Shown one piece after another: positions 14,245 through 24,758 of a DNA stretch of 64,000 nt. The translations under genes and the position numbers were made by a program. The notes beneath the pieces are model-generated. The model saw only the letters and a list, made by a program, of their open reading frames with translations, made no database searches and was not told where the DNA came from. Origin of the DNA: Anaerosomatales bacterium (GTDB taxonomy: Bacteria > Actinomycetota > Coriobacteriia > Anaerosomatales > SLCP01); assembly GCA_029210645.1 (NCBI GenBank), contig JARGFT010000001.1, forward strand, positions 127,035 to 191,034. The letters are read 5' to 3'. Positions within the stretch are counted from its first letter, which is position 1. Every line of letters starts with the position of its first letter.

Positions 14245-14304
14245 CGAAGTAGAGTCATGCGTGAAGTGGGTCACAAGGACCCCGGTCGAGAAGGAGCGAT
14301 CTTG

Positions 14305-15618
14305 ATGGCGCCAGTCAGTCAGCATGTGAGGGAGTCCCTGCAGGAGATCTTCGGCGATCGGGTGCGAACCGATCGAGTCGAGCGGAAAATGTACTCGTTC
14401 GACATCGGGACGATGCCCCGGCTGGTGAAGCCGGTGGTACCAGCGGGCCTGGCAGGTGCGGCAGTGCGCCCTCAGAGCGAGGCCGAGGTGGTCGCGCTGC
14501 TCGAACTCGCTTCACGCTTGAGCGTCGCCGTGGTGCCCCGTGGCTGGGCAACCTCCGGCTACGGCGGAGTCCTGCCGCGCGCGGGCGCCGTTGTTGCCGA
14601 CATGTCCGGTATGAACCGGATCCTCGCGCTCGACCACGCGAACATGACCGTGACCGTTGAACCCTCGGCTATCTGGCAGGACATCGACCGGGAGCTTGCC
14701 AAGGACGGTCTGACCCTGCGGCTCTATCCCTCGTCGACACCGAGCTCGGGAGCGGCGGGGTGGCTTGCGCAGGGCGGCGCCGGCTTCGGGTCGTTCGAGT
14801 ACGGCACCTTCAAGGAGAATGTCGTTTCTGCACGGGTGGTGCTTCCCGGTGGACAGGTCCGCGAGTTTGCCGGCAGTGACCTTGAGCGCTACGTCGCGGA
14901 CGCAGAGGGCATCACCGGGGTCATCACCCAGCTCACGTTCCGGATCCGGGCTCTCGAGCCCGAGGTCCACCACCTCTTCGCCTTTCCGGATGCACGCTCG
15001 CTGGCCATGATGCTCGCGGACGTGTCGCGTGCCGAACTCCCGCTATGGTCGGTGACCTTCCTCAATCCGGCGTCTGTCTCGCTCAAGAAGCAGCTTCCTC
15101 ACCGCCACGGGCATCCCTACGAAGAGGCGCATCCGCACGTGGAGCCCCAGCTCCCCGAATCGTATCTGGCTGTCGTGGCCTACCCGGAATCGCGCATGCC
15201 CGAGATCGACGAACGCCTCGAGGAGATTGTGCGGATACACGGGGGTATCGATTTGGGCCCGGAGGCTGCCGAGCACGAATGGGAGATGCGCTTCTCACCG
15301 ATACGGCTGAAGCGCATCGGCCCCTCGCTCGTGCCGACGGAGGTCGTGGTCCCGCTTGAGTCACTGGCTGACGTGCTGGCTGAGATCGACGCCCGGATCC
15401 GTCAGCCGTTCATCCTCGAGGGGATGCATGCGAAGGGCGACCGGATCGTCCTGCTCGGATTCATCCCTCATGACGAGCGCTTGTTCGCGTTCAATCTGGC
15501 CTTCGCGCTCTCGCTCTCGGTGATCCGGATCGCCAAGCAGCACGGGGGCTCAGCGTACTCGACCGGGCTGTACTTCCGGCGCGAGGCGCAGAGCGTTCTC
15601 GGTCCGGAGAGGGTCTAG
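14305..15618 (+). CDS. FAD-binding oxidase (GlcD/LldE-type PCMH domain), apparently truncated
   Basis: A 437-residue flavoprotein. The FAD-binding PCMH domain covers about residues 42-215, with PRGWATSGYGG and AAGWLAQGGAGFGSFEYG as flavin-contact regions. A C-terminal FAD-oxidase cap follows, as in glycolate oxidase GlcD and D-lactate dehydrogenases. The ATG at 14305 has AAGGAG 8 nt upstream. The frame ends at TAG after LGPERV. Beyond that stop the same frame continues ALSAFKAEVDP, which is the conserved end of this domain in relatives, so the stop looks premature. The substrate is unknown; an alpha-hydroxy acid is plausible. The next gene is its Fe-S partner. Confidence 0.85.
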   Translation: MAPVSQHVRESLQEIFGDRVRTDRVERKMYSFDIGTMPRLVKPVVPAGLAGAAVRPQSEAEVVALLELASRLSVAVVPRGWATSGYGGVLPRAGAVVADMSGMNRILALDHANMTVTVEPSAIWQDIDRELAKDGLTLRLYPSSTPSSGAAGWLAQGGAGFGSFEYGTFKENVVSARVVLPGGQVREFAGSDLERYVADAEGITGVITQLTFRIRALEPEVHHLFAFPDARSLAMMLADVSRAELPLWSVTFLNPASVSLKKQLPHRHGHPYEEAHPHVEPQLPESYLAVVAYPESRMPEIDERLEEIVRIHGGIDLGPEAAEHEWEMRFSPIRLKRIGPSLVPTEVVVPLESLADVLAEIDARIRQPFILEGMHAKGDRIVLLGFIPHDERLFAFNLAFALSLSVIRIAKQHGGSAYSTGLYFRREAQSVLGPERV

Positions 15619-15682
15619 GCACTGTCGGCTTTCAAAGCCGAGGTGGATCCGCGAGCTGCAGCTTCCGATCGAGCACAACTGG
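15616..15682 (+). other. Junction with premature stop and missing Fe-S domain
   Basis: After the TAG at 15616-15618 the FAD frame still encodes ALSAFKAEVDPR up to about 15654. In the frame one base later, RELQLPIEHNWMEMRGKL leads straight into the Fe-S protein. In fused relatives, a segment with two CxxCxxCxxxCP clusters normally sits between these two sequences; none is present here. The junction therefore looks like a stop mutation plus an internal deletion or frameshift, or an assembly error. Confidence 0.55.
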
Positions 15683-17026
15683 ATGGAGATGCGCGGCAAG
15701 CTCGTCCACGAACAGAAGGTCGGGACATTTCCGCCATTCGAGATGATGGCGGCCTCCCTGCGCGGCGAGAACGACATCTGGGCCGGGAAACGGGAGAACC
15801 GCGCGAACTGGGTGCCCGAGGATATCAAGCCCAAACTCAAGGAGAGCGGCGAGCTGATGTACTTCGCGGGCTGCACGGCAAGCTACGTCGAACACGACGT
15901 TGCCGAGGCGAGCGTGCGCCTTCTCACCGACGCTGGCTACGACATCTCCTACATGGGCACCGACGAGGCGTGCTGCGGCATTCCGATGAAGGTCGCCGGC
16001 AAGTGGGACGTCTTCGAGGAGATCTACGAGCACAACACCTCCGAAGCCCGAAAGCGTGGCGCGAAGACGATCGTCACGTCCTGTCCGGCATGCGCGCTCG
16101 TGTGGAAGGAGCTCTACGCCAACCTCGCCGCCGAGCGCGGAGATGCCTACGAGTTCGAGGTGAAGCACTACTCGGAGCTGGTGAGCGAAGCGCTCGCTGA
16201 CGGGCGGCTCGAACTCGCAAATCCGGTCGGGGGCCGCATCACCTTCCACGACTCGTGCCATGCAGGGCGCGCTCAGGGGCTCTACGATCCGCCTCGCGAC
16301 ATGCTCAAGGCGATTCCGGGCGTCGACTACGTCGAGATGGAGCACAACCGCGAAGAGGGCTACTACTGCGGCTCGGTGCTGACGCTCGTCGGCGAGATCG
16401 AGGTCGCTCCCGTGCTCGGAAAGCAGCGGCTGCAGGAGGCTGTCGACGTCGAGGCGGACACGGTGGTCGCACTCTGTCCCTGCTGTCAGGTCCAGTTGCG
16501 CGACAGCAACATCAAGAACGACCTCGGCCTGAAGATCGACGACCTGTCCCGTGTGGTGGCCCAGGCCGCCGGTTACGACATCCCCGAGACGACCGAGCGA
16601 GCGATGTACTACTGGGGATACTTCGACAAGTTCATCATCCTCATGCAGCCCGAGAACATGGCGGCGCTCATGGAGCGCATCTTCCCGCAGATGATGGATG
16701 CGATGCCGGCGGGCATGAAGCCGATGATGCTCGGCATGGGCCGGATACCCGGAGGCCCGAAGCTCATGGAGAAGATGATGCCGCTGATGTTCCCGTTGCT
16801 GGTGGACGGCATCATGAAGAAGGTCATGCCCGACCTGATCGCCGCGGTCCAGGAGTACATCGGTCCCATGCCCGATGACATGGAGGAGCTCGTGCCCGAC
16901 CTGCTGCCTCGCACGATGGAATCGCTGATGCCGACCTACCTGCCCGAGCTCATACCGCACCTAACGCCGCGGCTGATCGAGTGCATACGTCAGGGCTGTC
17001 GCGAGGAGGAGCTCGCGGCGTCGTAG
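15683..17026 (+). CDS. HdrD/GlcF-like (Fe-S)-binding protein, N-terminal ferredoxin module absent
   Basis: The 447-residue protein has two cysteine-rich CCG-type domains. The first spans FAGC...DEACCGIP around residues 59-104. The second spans the DSCH segment and EGYYCGS, ending in CPCCQ. Such domains bind the catalytic or relay cluster in heterodisulfide reductase HdrD and glycolate oxidase GlcF. The 2[4Fe-4S] ferredoxin module that normally precedes them is missing. The last ~120 residues are unusually rich in Met and Pro, with repeated MPxLxP-like units. The ATG at 15683 is the first in this frame, but homology seems to begin upstream (ELQLPIEHNW), so the true start is uncertain. It presumably worked with the FAD protein upstream. 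Confidence 0.75.
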   Translation: MEMRGKLVHEQKVGTFPPFEMMAASLRGENDIWAGKRENRANWVPEDIKPKLKESGELMYFAGCTASYVEHDVAEASVRLLTDAGYDISYMGTDEACCGIPMKVAGKWDVFEEIYEHNTSEARKRGAKTIVTSCPACALVWKELYANLAAERGDAYEFEVKHYSELVSEALADGRLELANPVGGRITFHDSCHAGRAQGLYDPPRDMLKAIPGVDYVEMEHNREEGYYCGSVLTLVGEIEVAPVLGKQRLQEAVDVEADTVVALCPCCQVQLRDSNIKNDLGLKIDDLSRVVAQAAGYDIPETTERAMYYWGYFDKFIILMQPENMAALMERIFPQMMDAMPAGMKPMMLGMGRIPGGPKLMEKMMPLMFPLLVDGIMKKVMPDLIAAVQEYIGPMPDDMEELVPDLLPRTMESLMPTYLPELIPHLTPRLIECIRQGCREEELAAS

Positions 17027-17071
17027 GAGCCGCCTCTCAAGCGCCACCGTGCCAGCGCCGATAGTCATCAC

Positions 17072-17770
17072 ATGAGAAGCACAGTTGTGAGCAAGAGCGC
17101 GGCGGGGAAGCTGGCTGCATTCCCGCTGTTCTCCACGTTGCCGATGGCAGACCTTGAGGAACTCGCGGGTATGCTCCGCTCCCGGCGATACTCCAAAGGC
17201 GTCTTCGTCGCATCGCGGGGTGAACCCTGTACCGCCATGTACCTGCTCGCATCCGGACGCGTGAAGCAGACCATCCCTTCGCCGGACGGCAAGGAGTTGG
17301 TGCTCGGCCACCTCGATGCTCCCGCGCACTTCGGCGAGGCGAGCCTGGTAGAGATGCAGCATCACATGGCGGACGTGGTCGCACTGTCAGAAACCGAGGT
17401 GCTCACGCTCGATGCGCGCGAACTCGAGCGCGCGATCCACATCCAGCCGCGCCTCGCACTCTCTCTGATCGCTGCGCTCTCCTCGCGACTGCGTGAGGCA
17501 GTCGAGCGGCTGGAGAGTCTGACGTTCCACGATGCCGCGCACCGCGTCATGCGAGTCTTGCTCAACATCGCCTCGGCACGCCACAGCATGACGGGTGCCT
17601 CGGCGATCTCCGGCTTCACCCATTACGACATCGCGACGCTTGCCGGGACATCGCGCGAGACCGCGAGCCGGGTGATCTCTTCTCTGACACGCGACGGGAT
17701 CATTGCGGTGCGTGGGAGAACGATCCTCGTCGACGTCGAGAAGCTGCGTGCAGAACTTGTCGTCCGATAG
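17072..17770 (+). CDS. Crp/Fnr-family transcriptional regulator
   Basis: The 232-residue protein has an N-terminal cyclic-nucleotide-binding-type beta roll (about 20-135), a long dimer helix and a C-terminal winged helix. The recognition segment THYDIATLAGTSRETASRVI is typical of the family. There is no N-terminal cluster of four Cys as in oxygen-sensing Fnr, so a [4Fe-4S] sensor is unlikely. The effector is unknown. It follows the Fe-S oxidoreductase gene after 45 nt and precedes the cytochrome b5-like gene, so either could be a target. Confidence 0.92.
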   Translation: MRSTVVSKSAAGKLAAFPLFSTLPMADLEELAGMLRSRRYSKGVFVASRGEPCTAMYLLASGRVKQTIPSPDGKELVLGHLDAPAHFGEASLVEMQHHMADVVALSETEVLTLDARELERAIHIQPRLALSLIAALSSRLREAVERLESLTFHDAAHRVMRVLLNIASARHSMTGASAISGFTHYDIATLAGTSRETASRVISSLTRDGIIAVRGRTILVDVEKLRAELVVR

Positions 17771-19420: not shown

Positions 19421-19583
19421 GGAGCGGTCCTTCCGGCAGGCGACTCGAACATCGTAGCGCACCGCTCATCCCGGTAGAACTGGCGGGACTGAAGCATTCT
19501 GACACTGATGCCGATAACCCGAACGAGTGACCGTGAAGGAGGTCGTCAGAGGCAGTTGGCGGCCCCGAGGAGGAGGTAGTGCG

Positions 19584-21275
19584 GTGTCGGCATCAAAGAA
19601 GGTGCTCATAGTCCACGACGACGCAGCTCTCGTCGAGCGCGTGCGTGCGTCTCTTGTCACCTCGGGAGCGCCCATCGAGGTCGTGAGCGCGATCGGGGGC
19701 CCGAGGGCACTCGGCATGATGGCGACACAGCACCCCGACGTCATCGTGGTCGATGCCGAGCTGGTCGGCATCGATGGCTACGCTCTCACCCAGCAGCTGA
19801 AGAAGAATCCCGAGACCGCCCGGGTTCCGGTGGTCATCGTCACGCTGAACCCGACCGAGTCCTCCGCGCTGAGAGCACGCCAGTGCGGTGCGGCGGCTCA
19901 TCTGCCGGCAACCGGACCGGTCGACGCGATCGTCGCGAAGGTGGTATCGCTTGCGGGCGCCGGGGACGCGGTGCGCTCGCCACAGCCGATACCCGTGCCC
20001 GTCGGAGTCGGAGCGCAGACCACCACCACCGCCCCCACAGTCACCTCGAGGGCGGCCGGTGTGTCGTCGCCTGCCTCGCAGGTACCGCCTGCGTCTCCGT
20101 CGCGCGATGAACTCCCGCCTCATCCCCCCGTGACCCGCGGGAACCAGCGCGACCTGTCGTTCGTTCCGGAGGTGGCGATAGGCAGCGACCCGCCGCATCA
20201 GGAGGAGAATCCGCACATCGACGATCTCCTGCGCATCATGATCGATCGCGGCGGGTCCGATCTGCATCTGACGGTGGGGAGCCCTCCGGGTATCAGGCTG
20301 CGCGGCGAGATAGTCCCCCTGGAAGACGCCCAGCCGCTGCAGCCGCGGGACACGATGGAGATGATCCTGAGCCTACTCTCCGAGGAGCAGAGGCGCCGGT
20401 TCGAGACGGAACTCGAGCTCGACTTCGCCTACAGCATCCCGGGTGTCTCTCGCTTCCGTGCCAACGTCTTCCAGCAGCGCAACTCGATGGGTGCCGTCTT
20501 CCGTGTCATCCCGATCGAGATTCCGACGCTGGAAGACCTGGGACTGCCCAAGGTCTGCCGCTTCCTCGCGGACAGGCCCCGAGGCCTCGTGCTCGTCACG
20601 GGCCCGACGGGGTCGGGTAAGTCAACCACGCTGGCGGCGATGATCGATCACATCAATGAGACTCGCCCCCTGCATATCGTCACGCTCGAGGACCCGATCG
20701 AGTTCATGCATCGCAACAAGCGGGCCTACGTCAACCAGCGCGAGGTCGGCGAGGACACCCACTCGTTTGCGGCAGCTCTCAAGCGGGTGCTCCGTCAGGA
20801 CCCCGACGTGATCCTCGTCGGCGAGATGCGCGACCTGGAGACAATCTCGGCTGCTATCACAGCTGCCGAGACCGGGCATCTGGTGCTCGCGACCCTGCAC
20901 ACCACCGGAGGCCCTGCCACGGTCGACCGCATCATCGACGTCTTCCCGCCTCATCAGCAGCAGCAGGTCCGCATGCAGCTCTCGGGGACTCTGGAGGGCG
21001 TGCTCTCCCAGGTCCTTCTGCGCTCCACGGACGGCAAGTCACGCGTCATGGCAATGGAGATCATGCTCGGCGTGCCGGCTATCTCCAACCTCATCCGTGA
21101 GGGCAAGACGCATCAGATGCCGACGATCATCCAGGCCGGCGCATCGGTGGGGATGCAGACGCTCGACCAGCATCTCAAGACGCTGCTCCAGGCCGGCAAG
21201 GTCACGTTCGAAGAGGCGATCAGCAAGGCGCAGAGCCCCCGCGAACTCGCACAGATGGTCGGCCGCAAGATCTAA
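19584..21275 (+). CDS. Receiver-domain / PilT ATPase fusion (type IV pilus twitching motor)
   Basis: The 563-residue protein starts with a CheY-like domain (residues 5-115). It keeps the acidic pair Asp12-Asp13, the phospho-acceptor Asp57 and Thr87, but the conserved Lys is absent (AAHLPATGP). A Pro/Thr/Ser-rich linker (about 130-190) joins it to a complete PilT ATPase. That part has Walker A GPTGSGKST at 340-348, the Walker B region DPDVILVGEMRD, the His-containing LATLHTT box and a QLSGTLEGVLSQ segment. PilT powers pilus retraction in other bacteria. The GTG at 19584 has AGGAGG 7 nt upstream; a start 57 nt earlier does not. No other pilus genes lie in the window. Confidence 0.92.
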   Translation: MSASKKVLIVHDDAALVERVRASLVTSGAPIEVVSAIGGPRALGMMATQHPDVIVVDAELVGIDGYALTQQLKKNPETARVPVVIVTLNPTESSALRARQCGAAAHLPATGPVDAIVAKVVSLAGAGDAVRSPQPIPVPVGVGAQTTTTAPTVTSRAAGVSSPASQVPPASPSRDELPPHPPVTRGNQRDLSFVPEVAIGSDPPHQEENPHIDDLLRIMIDRGGSDLHLTVGSPPGIRLRGEIVPLEDAQPLQPRDTMEMILSLLSEEQRRRFETELELDFAYSIPGVSRFRANVFQQRNSMGAVFRVIPIEIPTLEDLGLPKVCRFLADRPRGLVLVTGPTGSGKSTTLAAMIDHINETRPLHIVTLEDPIEFMHRNKRAYVNQREVGEDTHSFAAALKRVLRQDPDVILVGEMRDLETISAAITAAETGHLVLATLHTTGGPATVDRIIDVFPPHQQQQVRMQLSGTLEGVLSQVLLRSTDGKSRVMAMEIMLGVPAISNLIREGKTHQMPTIIQAGASVGMQTLDQHLKTLLQAGKVTFEEAISKAQSPRELAQMVGRKI

Positions 21276-21325: not shown

Positions 21326-21772
21326 ATGGACACAGTGCGCGTTCGTTGGAGTGAGAACCGTCAGCTCATCGGGTGGGACGAGGCTGGTCACGGCATCGTC
21401 ATGGATGCGAGCCCCGCATACCACGGGGAGGGCACCGGGATACGCCCGATCGAGCTGGTCCTCTACGGCATAGCAGGCTGCACGGCCATGGATGTCATCT
21501 CGATCCTCGAGAAGAAGCGCCAGGACGTCCGCGGTGTTGAGGTCGTCGTCGAAGGCGATCAGCGCACCGACGAGTATCCGAAGGTCTACACAGAGATCCG
21601 TCTCCATTACATCGTGACCGGTTTCGGGGTCTCCGAGGAGGCCGTCCGTCGATCTATCGAGCTTTCCGAAGAGAAGTACTGCTCGGTCGGTGGTATGCTC
21701 AAGCCTCATGTGCGGATCGCGACCTCGTACGAGGTCCGCGAGGCACGGCAGGCAAACACCCCGTCGAGATAG
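21326..21772 (+). CDS. OsmC family protein
   Basis: The 148-residue protein has the OsmC/Ohr fold pattern: an N-terminal beta region, then the helix YGIAGCTAMDVISILEKKRQ with the first redox Cys near residue 55, and a C-terminal KYCSVGGML segment with the second Cys. OsmC-type proteins reduce organic hydroperoxides using thiols; many relatives have unknown roles. The ATG at 21326 has only a weak ribosome site. The gene is 50 nt after pilT and 11 nt before the glycosyltransferase gene. It may be part of the cluster with PIG-L and BshC-like genes. Confidence 0.88.
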   Translation: MDTVRVRWSENRQLIGWDEAGHGIVMDASPAYHGEGTGIRPIELVLYGIAGCTAMDVISILEKKRQDVRGVEVVVEGDQRTDEYPKVYTEIRLHYIVTGFGVSEEAVRRSIELSEEKYCSVGGMLKPHVRIATSYEVREARQANTPSR

Positions 21773-21783
21773 GACCATCATCG

Positions 21784-22488
21784 ATGTCAGATGCGGTGCT
21801 CCTGCCTGTCTACAACGAAGAGGAGACCGTTGGCTCGGTCCTCGACGCGGTCCGCGGGTACTTTCACGGCGACGTGCTGGTGGTCGACGATGGCTCCACC
21901 GACGGGACAGCCGAGGTTCTCTCCGCGCGCACTGACGTCTCAGTGATCACCCATCCCTTCAACATGGGCTACGGGCGTGCCCTTTCCGAGGGATTATCGG
22001 TGGCGCGTGCTCGCGGGTGCGGGCGGGTCGTGACGATGGACTGTGATGGGCAGCACGAGCCGGCGCACATCCATGAGTTTCTCACCGTCCTCGACGAAGG
22101 CTGGGACATCGTCTCGGGCAGTCGGTATCTGCCGGATAGCGAGGAGCTCGGCATCGTTGCGCCGGGACAGCGCCAGGAGGTGAACCGGCGGGTCACCGAT
22201 GAGATCAACAGCGTCACCGGCTGGTCGATCACCGATGCGTTCTGCGGCTTCAAGGCGTACCGCCTGGCGGCACTCGACGGCATCGAGCTCTCCGAGCCGG
22301 GATACGCGCTGCCGCTCGAGATGTGGGCGAAGGCGTACCGGGCGGGGCTGCACGTGCGGGAGATGGCGGTCGCGCGCATCTACTGCGACCACAACCGTTC
22401 CTTCGGCGACGGACTCGACGATGCGGAGCACCGTTTCGGCTACTACATGCGTGTCTGGCGACAGGCGCTCGGTGCCGAGGGGGCGTGA
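21784..22488 (+). CDS. Glycosyltransferase family 2
   Basis: A 234-residue GT-A-fold enzyme with the nucleotide-sugar region LLPVYNEEETVGSVLDAV at the N-terminus, the VVDDGSTDGT segment and a DCDGQHEP metal site (Asp-x-Asp type). It looks soluble, like dolichol-phosphate-mannose-synthase-type GT2 enzymes without membrane helices. Donor and acceptor are unknown. It is followed after 4 nt by the PIG-L deacetylase, so the deacetylase may act on the sugar this enzyme transfers. Confidence 0.88.
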   Translation: MSDAVLLPVYNEEETVGSVLDAVRGYFHGDVLVVDDGSTDGTAEVLSARTDVSVITHPFNMGYGRALSEGLSVARARGCGRVVTMDCDGQHEPAHIHEFLTVLDEGWDIVSGSRYLPDSEELGIVAPGQRQEVNRRVTDEINSVTGWSITDAFCGFKAYRLAALDGIELSEPGYALPLEMWAKAYRAGLHVREMAVARIYCDHNRSFGDGLDDAEHRFGYYMRVWRQALGAEGA

Positions 22489-22492
22489 GAGC

Positions 22493-23176
22493 GTGGTTGA
22501 CGTTGTCTGTGTCGGAGCCCACCCCGACGATGTGGAGATCGGCATGGGAGCGACCGTCTCCGGTATGGTGCGCCGCGGGCTCTCCGTCGCGATCGTCGAC
22601 CTCACCGATGGCGAACCGACGCCGGCGGGCACGCGTGAGATACGGCTGGCCGAAGCCGAAGCCGCCGCTCGAGTCCTGGGAGTGAGCGAACGCCGGACGC
22701 TTGCGCTTCCGAACCGGAGTCTCTTCGACACCGAGGAGGCGCGCGCCGCTCTGGCAGAGGTCTTTCGCGAGTTGCGTCCGCGCGTCGTGTTCGGGCCGTA
22801 CCCGCTCGATGCCCATCCCGACCACATCGCAGCCTCGGCCATCGTTCAGGCCGCGCGTTTCTGGGCCAAGCTCACCAAGAGTGCGATGCGCGGTAAACCG
22901 CACTACCCGGCGCGGCTCTACCGGTATATGGCGGTACACCTGCGCCTCGTGCGCGAGCCCTCGTTCGTGGTGGACGTCAGCGAGGACCTCTCGACCAAAC
23001 TCGAAGCACTTGCGATGTATGAGTCGCAGTTCTTCGCCAACCCGGCAAACACCGGCATCATCGAGATGATGGATGCGGCCGCGCGTATGTGGGGCGGCAC
23101 GATCGGGACGGCGGCGGGGGAGCCGTTCTTCTCAGACGAGCCCGTCGGTATCCGCTCGTTCGATGCACTCGTCTGA
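22493..23176 (+). CDS. PIG-L family deacetylase (LmbE/BshB-like)
   Basis: Zinc-dependent N-deacetylase, typically acting on GlcNAc-containing small molecules or lipids. The 227-residue protein has the metal motif GAHPDDVEIGMG (residues 8-19) and the second His site in DAHPDHIAAS. The C-terminal segment YESQFFANP fits the BshB1 subgroup. I chose the GTG at 22493 because it directly follows the glycosyltransferase stop and has a G-rich ribosome site. Longer starts lie inside that gene. Between a glycosyltransferase and a BshC-like gene, a role in a bacillithiol-like thiol pathway is possible but unproven. Confidence 0.88.
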   Translation: MVDVVCVGAHPDDVEIGMGATVSGMVRRGLSVAIVDLTDGEPTPAGTREIRLAEAEAAARVLGVSERRTLALPNRSLFDTEEARAALAEVFRELRPRVVFGPYPLDAHPDHIAASAIVQAARFWAKLTKSAMRGKPHYPARLYRYMAVHLRLVREPSFVVDVSEDLSTKLEALAMYESQFFANPANTGIIEMMDAAARMWGGTIGTAAGEPFFSDEPVGIRSFDALV

Positions 23177-23189
23177 GGTGCCGACTGCC

Positions 23190-24758
23190 ATGCGCCCTCG
23201 TGCTGATATGCCTTCCGGCCACGGAGAGCTTACCGCGGTTCCCCCTGTCAACGAATGGGCCGACCTCGCCCGCGCCAACGCGCGTGCGGCCGAGTCGTGG
23301 GAGTTCGAGATCGCGGGCGTGCCCGTGTCCGACGTGCGGTCTGAAGCGCGCAGGGCGCTGCTCGCGGTCGCATCCAACGTCACCGCGGCGATGGGCCTGG
23401 ATGCGGCGCCCGTCTCCGAAGATCCGGGTCCGGTCGTGGTGACCGGTCATCAGCCGGACCTCTATCACGCCGGCGTGTGGGCCAAGGACTTCCTGGTTCA
23501 GCACATTGCCCGCCAAACGCGGGGAACCGGCGTGGACATCGTGGTGGACACCGATGGGTTCGACCGGGTGGGCGTCGACGTTCCCTGTCTCGATCTCGCA
23601 GAGAAACGGTGCCGACATGACCTTGTCGTCGGTTCCGAAGGCTCGTGCTTCGGGTGCGCCCCGGTGCCCTCAACCGAGCAGATCGAGGACTTCTGTCAGG
23701 CGACCACGGCGACGCTCCGTACGCTGCCCGCGCCCGCCGTCGCACACCACTTCTCGCACTTCTGCGATGTCCTACGGGAGGCGCACCCGTTCAGTCGCTC
23801 GCTCGCCGACCTCATCACCGGGGCGCGGCGGCGCTTCGAGGGCGAGCTGACCGACTACCTCGAGCTGCCGGTCACCGACGCCGCGGCGACCCGACCGTAC
23901 CTGCGCTTCGCGCTCGACATCCTGCTCGATGCGGAGCGGTTCGCCCGGTGCCACAACGCGGTGCTCGACGAGTTCCGGTCGCGCAACCGGGTGCGCACTC
24001 CGGCACAGCCCTTCCCGAACCTGAGCGTGTCGCACGGGAGCGTCGAGGTCCCGTTCTGGCTCGTCAGTGCCGAGGGCCGCTTTGCGGCGAGGATTGCGGA
24101 AGCCGGCGATGGCATCGACCTGCTCGGCCCCGAAGGTCCCGTCCTCCACCTGCCGAGCGACACCGAGGTAGCCCTGACCGTTCTCGCGGACTCAGGTCTG
24201 ACCCTGGCGCCGCGAGCGGTAACGCTCACGCTGTTCTTCCGGACCTTCCTGGCGGACCTGTTCATACACGGGATCGGGGGAGACCGGTACGATCGCGTTA
24301 CCGACGGCATCGCACGAGAGTGGTGGGGCATCGAGCTTCCGCCGTACGTGGTCGCTTCGCTCACGATGTACCTTCCGCTGGAAGCTCCCATCGTCAGCGA
24401 CGAGGATATCGCTGATCTCGATTGGCGAGTGCACCGCCTGACGCACAATCCGGACGAGGCGCTCGCAGAGATGTCGTTCGACAGCGCCGATGAGCAGAGC
24501 CGTGCTCTCGCCCTTGTCGAGGAGAAGCGCCGACTCGTGCATGAGATCTCTGTCGACGGTGCGGACAAGAAGGCGCTCGGGACCCGTATCCGTGCGGTGA
24601 ACGACGAGATGGGCATCCTTGTCGCGCCGCTCGTCGCCGAGGTGCGTGCGCGACGTCACAGGCTGGTGGCGCAGCAGCGCGATTCCGAGGTCCTGACCGA
24701 TCGGACGTACCCGTTCTGCCTGTGGAGTCCGGCACAGATCGCGGACCGGATCGGGTGA
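23190..24758 (+). CDS. BshC-like protein of unknown function
   Basis: A 522-residue soluble protein of a family without established function, as far as I recognise. The segment VVVTGHQPDLYHAGVWAKDF (about residues 83-102) has the same layout as the GQQ-x-L-x-x-G-P-x-Y-x-x-K region of BshC, the bacillithiol cysteine ligase. VVDTDGFDRV parallels the acidic motif that follows in BshC. IHGIGGDRYDRVTDG is conspicuous near residue 360, and a helical, charged region follows in the last 110 residues. The length is close to BshC (about 540). The ATG at 23190 follows GAGGTG. I rank distant BshC homology as a hypothesis only. Confidence 0.7.
   Translation: MRPRADMPSGHGELTAVPPVNEWADLARANARAAESWEFEIAGVPVSDVRSEARRALLAVASNVTAAMGLDAAPVSEDPGPVVVTGHQPDLYHAGVWAKDFLVQHIARQTRGTGVDIVVDTDGFDRVGVDVPCLDLAEKRCRHDLVVGSEGSCFGCAPVPSTEQIEDFCQATTATLRTLPAPAVAHHFSHFCDVLREAHPFSRSLADLITGARRRFEGELTDYLELPVTDAAATRPYLRFALDILLDAERFARCHNAVLDEFRSRNRVRTPAQPFPNLSVSHGSVEVPFWLVSAEGRFAARIAEAGDGIDLLGPEGPVLHLPSDTEVALTVLADSGLTLAPRAVTLTLFFRTFLADLFIHGIGGDRYDRVTDGIAREWWGIELPPYVVASLTMYLPLEAPIVSDEDIADLDWRVHRLTHNPDEALAEMSFDSADEQSRALALVEEKRRLVHEISVDGADKKALGTRIRAVNDEMGILVAPLVAEVRARRHRLVAQQRDSEVLTDRTYPFCLWSPAQIADRIG

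Follow-up and report, generated by a model that had tools for sequence, protein, structure and literature searches.

Three adjacent genes of an Anaerosomatales genome, encoding a GT2 glycosyltransferase, a PIG-L deacetylase of the BshB1 family and a remote homologue of the bacillithiol ligase BshC, form a conserved set that also recurs in other phyla. We consider it fairly probable that this triad makes a cysteinyl-glucosamine thiol of some kind, bacillithiol included. We put at about even the odds that this product, while a low-molecular-weight thiol of the kind to which bacillithiol and mycothiol belong, is not bacillithiol itself; and the broadest reading, an undescribed third branch of the cysteinyl-glucosamine thiols in which glycosyltransferase, aglycone and ligase family are all distinct, used by anammox bacteria, many other Planctomycetota, Armatimonadota, Nitrospinota and Anaerosomatales, falls just short of even. 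In the proposed pathway the GT2 enzyme would transfer GlcNAc to a small acceptor (X), the BshB1-family enzyme would strip the acetyl group, and the BshC-like protein would ligate cysteine to the free amine in an ATP-dependent reaction, giving Cys-GlcN-X. We infer these three reactions and their substrates, and equally that the amino acid ligated is cysteine and that a redox thiol results.

The window analysed is the whole stretch of 64,000 nucleotides, from a metagenome-assembled genome of 1.98 Mb in 46 contigs (order Anaerosomatales, class Coriobacteriia). A four-gene run on the + strand consists of an OsmC-family protein (21326..21772, 148 aa; PF02566, 66.9 bits), a GT2 glycosyltransferase resembling DPM and GpgS (21784..22488, 234 aa; PF00535, 89.5 bits), a PIG-L/LmbE de-N-acetylase of the BshB1 family with a GTG start (22493..23176, 227 aa; PF02585, 95.6 bits, and TIGR04001) and the BshC-like protein (23190..24758, 522 aa; assigned by the match of its AlphaFold model to BshC, 4wbd). 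The gaps between them are only 11, 4 and 13 bp, and the adjacency of the four genes reported in a preliminary description of this DNA is confirmed, each being found at its place on that strand.

The family of the 522-aa protein was found in 65 of 99 relatives, all belonging to the order of the host, and in none of 30 genomes from other orders of the class. The order GT2-BshB-BshC-like is kept in all 30 loci of Anaerosomatales that were read; together these counts place the gene arrangement far beyond chance. Since the neighbourhood is syntenic within the order anyway, only conservation across phyla counts as independent. A wider scan of 84,980 genomes returned at least 547 relatives, the best 80 of which were kept. 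Outside the order, the full GT2-BshB1-BshC-like triad is present in Armatimonadota, ANGP1, Nitrospinota, Nitrospirota and Limnochordia-type Bacillota; in most non-anammox Planctomycetota loci GT2 adjoins the BshC-like gene and bshB lies elsewhere in the genome, while anammox genomes contain all three genes unlinked. Among the 246 Planctomycetota sampled, 42 have the BshC-like family, a few of them through weak or partial matches only. When neighbours were clustered, only the triad, overlapping spurious frames aside, recurred widely within the order as well as beyond it. The cluster proposed in the preliminary description is therefore conserved, both in Anaerosomatales and in several phyla besides. 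Over 53 loci, the three proteins have pairwise distances that correlate with one another at 0.84-0.88, a level expected of co-inherited genes and for which there is no independent control.

These data bear directly on the view that the three genes have unrelated jobs and are held together by regional synteny. Inside the order both flanks are conserved, unrelated genes included, as such a view would have it; outside the order, however, the triad stays while its neighbours differ between phyla, and the genes co-occur even when they are unlinked. By these two results the explanation is largely refuted, and we regard it as very improbable. With regard to unlinked genes, a GT2 orthologue (233-332 bits) was found elsewhere in the genome in 14 of 15 genomes, mostly anammox, that have no GT2 beside the BshC-like gene, and in none of eight genomes that lack the BshC-like gene, where the best GT2 scored 132 bits; the corresponding Fisher probability (~2e-5) is indicative only, given the relatedness of the genomes and a cut that was set after the gap had been seen. 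Of 66 genomes tested for BshB1, 56 have it over the cut-off, whereas the four Coriobacteriia without the BshC-like protein all lack it at that level. One locus, L070, from a genome labelled Slackia heliotrinireducens FI88, has GT2 and the BshC-like gene with no adjacent BshB and no BshB1 over the cut-off in the genome.

The resemblance of the 522-aa protein to BshC, originally suggested by motif spacing, was examined at the levels of sequence, profile and structure. Searched as a single sequence, the protein has no Pfam or NCBIfam match, and none of 67 diverse members of its family, scanned singly, could be assigned to a Pfam family; thus, it appears to belong to an unclassified family. Pfam matches of the family at E 0.001-1 were scattered chance matches, and the sole PDB match of an order-only profile, to the de novo protein Syn-F4, was a coiled-coil artefact. 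The AlphaFold model (67 input sequences) has a pLDDT of 93.3 and a pTM of 0.86. A PDB structure search with this model yielded a single match at E≤1e-3, BshC from Bacillus subtilis (4wbd; E 7e-13, probability 1.00, whole-length TM 0.51, ~12% identity), followed at E 0.003 by weak matches to tyrosyl-tRNA synthetases, which are class I tRNA synthetases. Profile alignment with hhalign to a reference of 29 canonical BshC proteins from another phylum gave E 1.5e-5 (5.7e-6 with query and target swapped) over ~435 colinear columns, against E≥0.03 for reversed, shuffled and unrelated control profiles. The suggested relationship is thus upheld by fold and by profile (E ~1e-5) alike. The acidic motif is VVDTD, and the other motif reads GHQPDLYHAG, a spacing of GHQ-x-x-L-x-x-x-G that departs slightly from the GHQ-x-L-x-x-G of the preliminary description. 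Canonical BshC has TGQQ, and the 522-aa protein GHQ. Of 21 aligned positions that are at least 80% conserved in both families, 11 are identical (G86, Q88, K99, D120, D122, R297, P341, G361, G363, Y367 and R505, corresponding to GxQ, K, DxD, R, P, GxGxxxY and R) and the rest differ. The curated BshC model (TIGR03998, cut-off 265.8 bits) has no match in the host genome.

Judged by profile and predicted structure, the 522-aa protein is a remote BshC homologue that lies outside the curated BshC family, and it is likely to work like BshC. This remote homology is also the basis on which we take cysteine as its probable substrate; at such a level of identity, and with a TM score of only 0.51, the ligated amino acid could be another. 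A more distant BshC-like subfamily seems to be present in Planctomycetota (genomes G394, G468, G513, G524, G455, G285, G317 and G378), with scores of 74-188 bits, some of them as two segments of one frame.

The deacetylase scores 207.4-207.8 bits with TIGR04001, over the curated equivalog cut-off for BshB1 (182.5), and its closest PDB entry is B. subtilis BshB1 (6p2t, E 8.7e-53); as MshB it reaches only 43 bits. The AHPDD and HPDH motifs, which contain the metal and base residues of PIG-L enzymes, are invariant or nearly so among 27 diverse members, the invariant residues of the two motifs being H10, D12, D13, H108, D110 and H111. The BshB1 score suggests a substrate near GlcNAc-malate, and to this extent it favours bacillithiol as the product.

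The model of the glycosyltransferase (pLDDT 93.7) matches Dpm1 in Foldseek searches (5mlz, E 2.4e-14), and also ArnC and GpgS (TM 0.77); GpgS and dolichyl-phosphate mannose synthase share its fold and are its nearest structures, at an identity of ~20-24%. Neither of the two is known to have a deacetylase and an amino acid ligase as partners. The acceptors of BshA, MshA and GpgS are small and anionic, and for this reason we prefer, by analogy, a small hydroxy acid as the putative acceptor of the GT2 enzyme, with a lipid phosphate as the less favoured candidate. GpgS is a retaining GT81 enzyme; as it is among the closest structures, we do not assert strict inverting chemistry, and hence a beta anomer, from the GT2 label. 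Since the enzyme is neither BshA nor MshA, the aglycone X, the anomer, or both are probably unlike those of bacillithiol, and the identities of acceptor, anomer and product are all predictions in this sense.

Among the relatives of GT2 are enzymes acting on polyprenyl phosphate, which raises the possibility of a non-redox glycoconjugate: a carrier such as polyprenyl phosphate would be loaded with an amino sugar by GT2, the deacetylase would expose the amine, and the BshC-like protein would add some other amino acid, for a role in the envelope or in a natural product. The curated models that stand nearest to GT2 are those of polyprenyl- and dolichyl-phosphate sugar synthases; in the PDB, dolichol-phosphate mannose synthase is closest in sequence. 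However, GT2 has no transmembrane or strongly hydrophobic stretch (its highest Kyte-Doolittle mean over 19 residues is 1.02), none of the genes seen to accompany the triad across phyla is a flippase, a polymerase or another envelope gene, the deacetylase is of the BshB1 type rather than a general PIG-L enzyme, and the ligase matches nothing but BshC in the PDB at the threshold given above. We therefore consider this alternative rather improbable.

The preliminary description had also reasoned that a GT2 enzyme implies a different product. This argument does not hold, because an unrelated glycosyltransferase could also arrive at GlcNAc-malate, and by its score the deacetylase is a BshB1. The nearest alternative to a new thiol, and the main rival, is accordingly ordinary bacillithiol made by replaced enzymes: GT2 would have displaced BshA in a non-orthologous manner to make GlcNAc-malate, BshB1 would act on it, and a highly divergent BshC would add cysteine. 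The equivalog-level scores of the triad deacetylases are consistent with such a route, as is the fact that GpgS, a structural neighbour of GT2, glycosylates a small phosphorylated hydroxy acid. A further point in its favour is the one exception to the absence of BshA, which is over the cut-off in only one of 66 genomes; this genome, a Candidatus Scalindua (G113; loci L092 and L157), has BshA at 282 bits together with BshB1 and the BshC-like protein, and has no canonical BshC. On the other hand, the first and the last enzyme both differ from those of bacillithiol synthesis, and canonical BshC (TIGR03998) was found in none of the 38 genomes with the BshC-like protein that were tested (the host and 37 further genomes), a pattern that a changed acceptor explains more easily. 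On balance we hold bacillithiol by this route to be unlikely, although less so than a glycoconjugate, and a thiol other than bacillithiol remains our preferred reading. The gene content of the Scalindua genome itself points to a possible mixed or transitional pathway.

The search for known thiol enzymes, for which the preliminary description had named BshA, MshA and MshC, is in agreement with this reading: no BshA, BshC or MshC passes its curated cut-off in the host genome. The best match to the BshA model (TIGR03999) has 116.2 bits, against a cut-off of 273.7, and the GT4 enzymes of this genome, at 68-116 bits, were set aside as ordinary GT4 proteins. MshC over its cut-off (485.1 bits) was found in none of 37 genomes, and the best matches to its model, at 210-313 bits, are most probably CysRS. 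GshB-type ATP domains (PF02955) are absent from the host genome. They do occur, however, in 15 of the 37 genomes tested, relatives or carriers; this counts against the reading, since some carriers may make glutathione too. Within the order, 10 of 25 genomes (G004, G006, G007, G009, G013, G021, G024, G038, G043 and G052) have a protein with a strong GshB ATP domain (172-183 bits) and an 11th has a weak one; the genus of the host has none.

The fourth gene of the run was regarded in the preliminary description as part of the system. The OsmC-family protein does precede the cluster, ending 11 bp before GT2, and the gap is short (≤46 bp) in all 35 loci of the order that were measured. It retains C52 and C119, as in OsmC, Ohr and YhfA, and its best curated model is PRK10738 (121.6 bits, under the cut-off of 138). 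However, OsmC adjoins the triad in Anaerosomatales loci only and in none of the loci from other phyla, and within the order unrelated neighbours are equally conserved; we therefore rejected it as a core component in favour of a lineage-specific neighbour. Its product may be a user of the thiol, or the gene may simply share the operon.

These results can be compared with the pathways already described. The triad has the same logical order as BshA-BshB-BshC, with a glycosyltransferase, BshB1 and a protein that has the fold and length of BshC and shares the GxQ, K, DxD and GxGxxxY positions. It differs in that BshA is a GT4 enzyme and the enzyme found here is of the GT2/DPM-GpgS type, in that the BshC-like protein, ~12% identical to BshC, is missed by TIGR03998 and by every Pfam family, and in that the genes occur in other phyla and in one operon. 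The mycothiol pathway (MshA-MshB-MshC-MshD) has in common the scheme of glycosyl transfer, PIG-L deacetylation and cysteine ligation, as well as a high-GC Actinobacteriota host; here, however, MshC is missing at its cut-off in all of the genomes searched, the deacetylase is BshB1, and the ligase is not CysRS-like in sequence. N-methyl-bacillithiol of Chlorobaculum tepidum is likewise a variant of the bacillithiol scheme in anaerobes; as described in two reports (PMC6282198, PMC12719100), its pathway retains BshA and BshC, with the methyltransferase NmbA in addition, whereas here the first and last enzymes differ. In these reports, the distribution of bacillithiol, N-methyl-bacillithiol and mycothiol was traced through homologues of BshA/BshC or MshA-D. 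Hiras et al. (2018; PMC6282198) state that for Planctomycetes and other major lineages a low-molecular-weight thiol has been neither documented nor predicted. We found no description of the GT2/BshC-like combination in the part of the literature that is under open licence and was available. A gene set that is linked or co-occurring in at least six phyla, including the environmentally important anammox bacteria, makes it possible to search for a predicted class of product starting from named genes. It may explain which glutathione-like compound is used by phyla without known thiol routes, and the BshC-like protein provides a distant second family for the study of BshC.

A few observations concern the surroundings of the triad. 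In Armatimonadota/ANGP1-type loci (L071, L074, L077-L082, L084, L086 and L106), genes for an ABC-type ATPase and for CcmB/C-, CcmF- and CcmE-like proteins of cytochrome c maturation lie near the triad, joined in several of these genomes by haem synthesis genes, mostly within ~8 kb of the BshC-like gene; all were read from the sequences alone. A link of the triad's product to cytochrome c or haem is possible. In the window itself, a 582-aa frame upstream of the run (19527-21275, +) encodes a PilT-type T2SSE ATPase that has a response-regulator receiver domain at its N-terminus, and at 14257-17770 (+) an FAD-binding oxidase, a CCG protein (HdrB/GlcF-like) and a Crp-type regulator stand in a row that resembles an oxidoreductase composed of a flavoprotein and a cysteine-rich partner.
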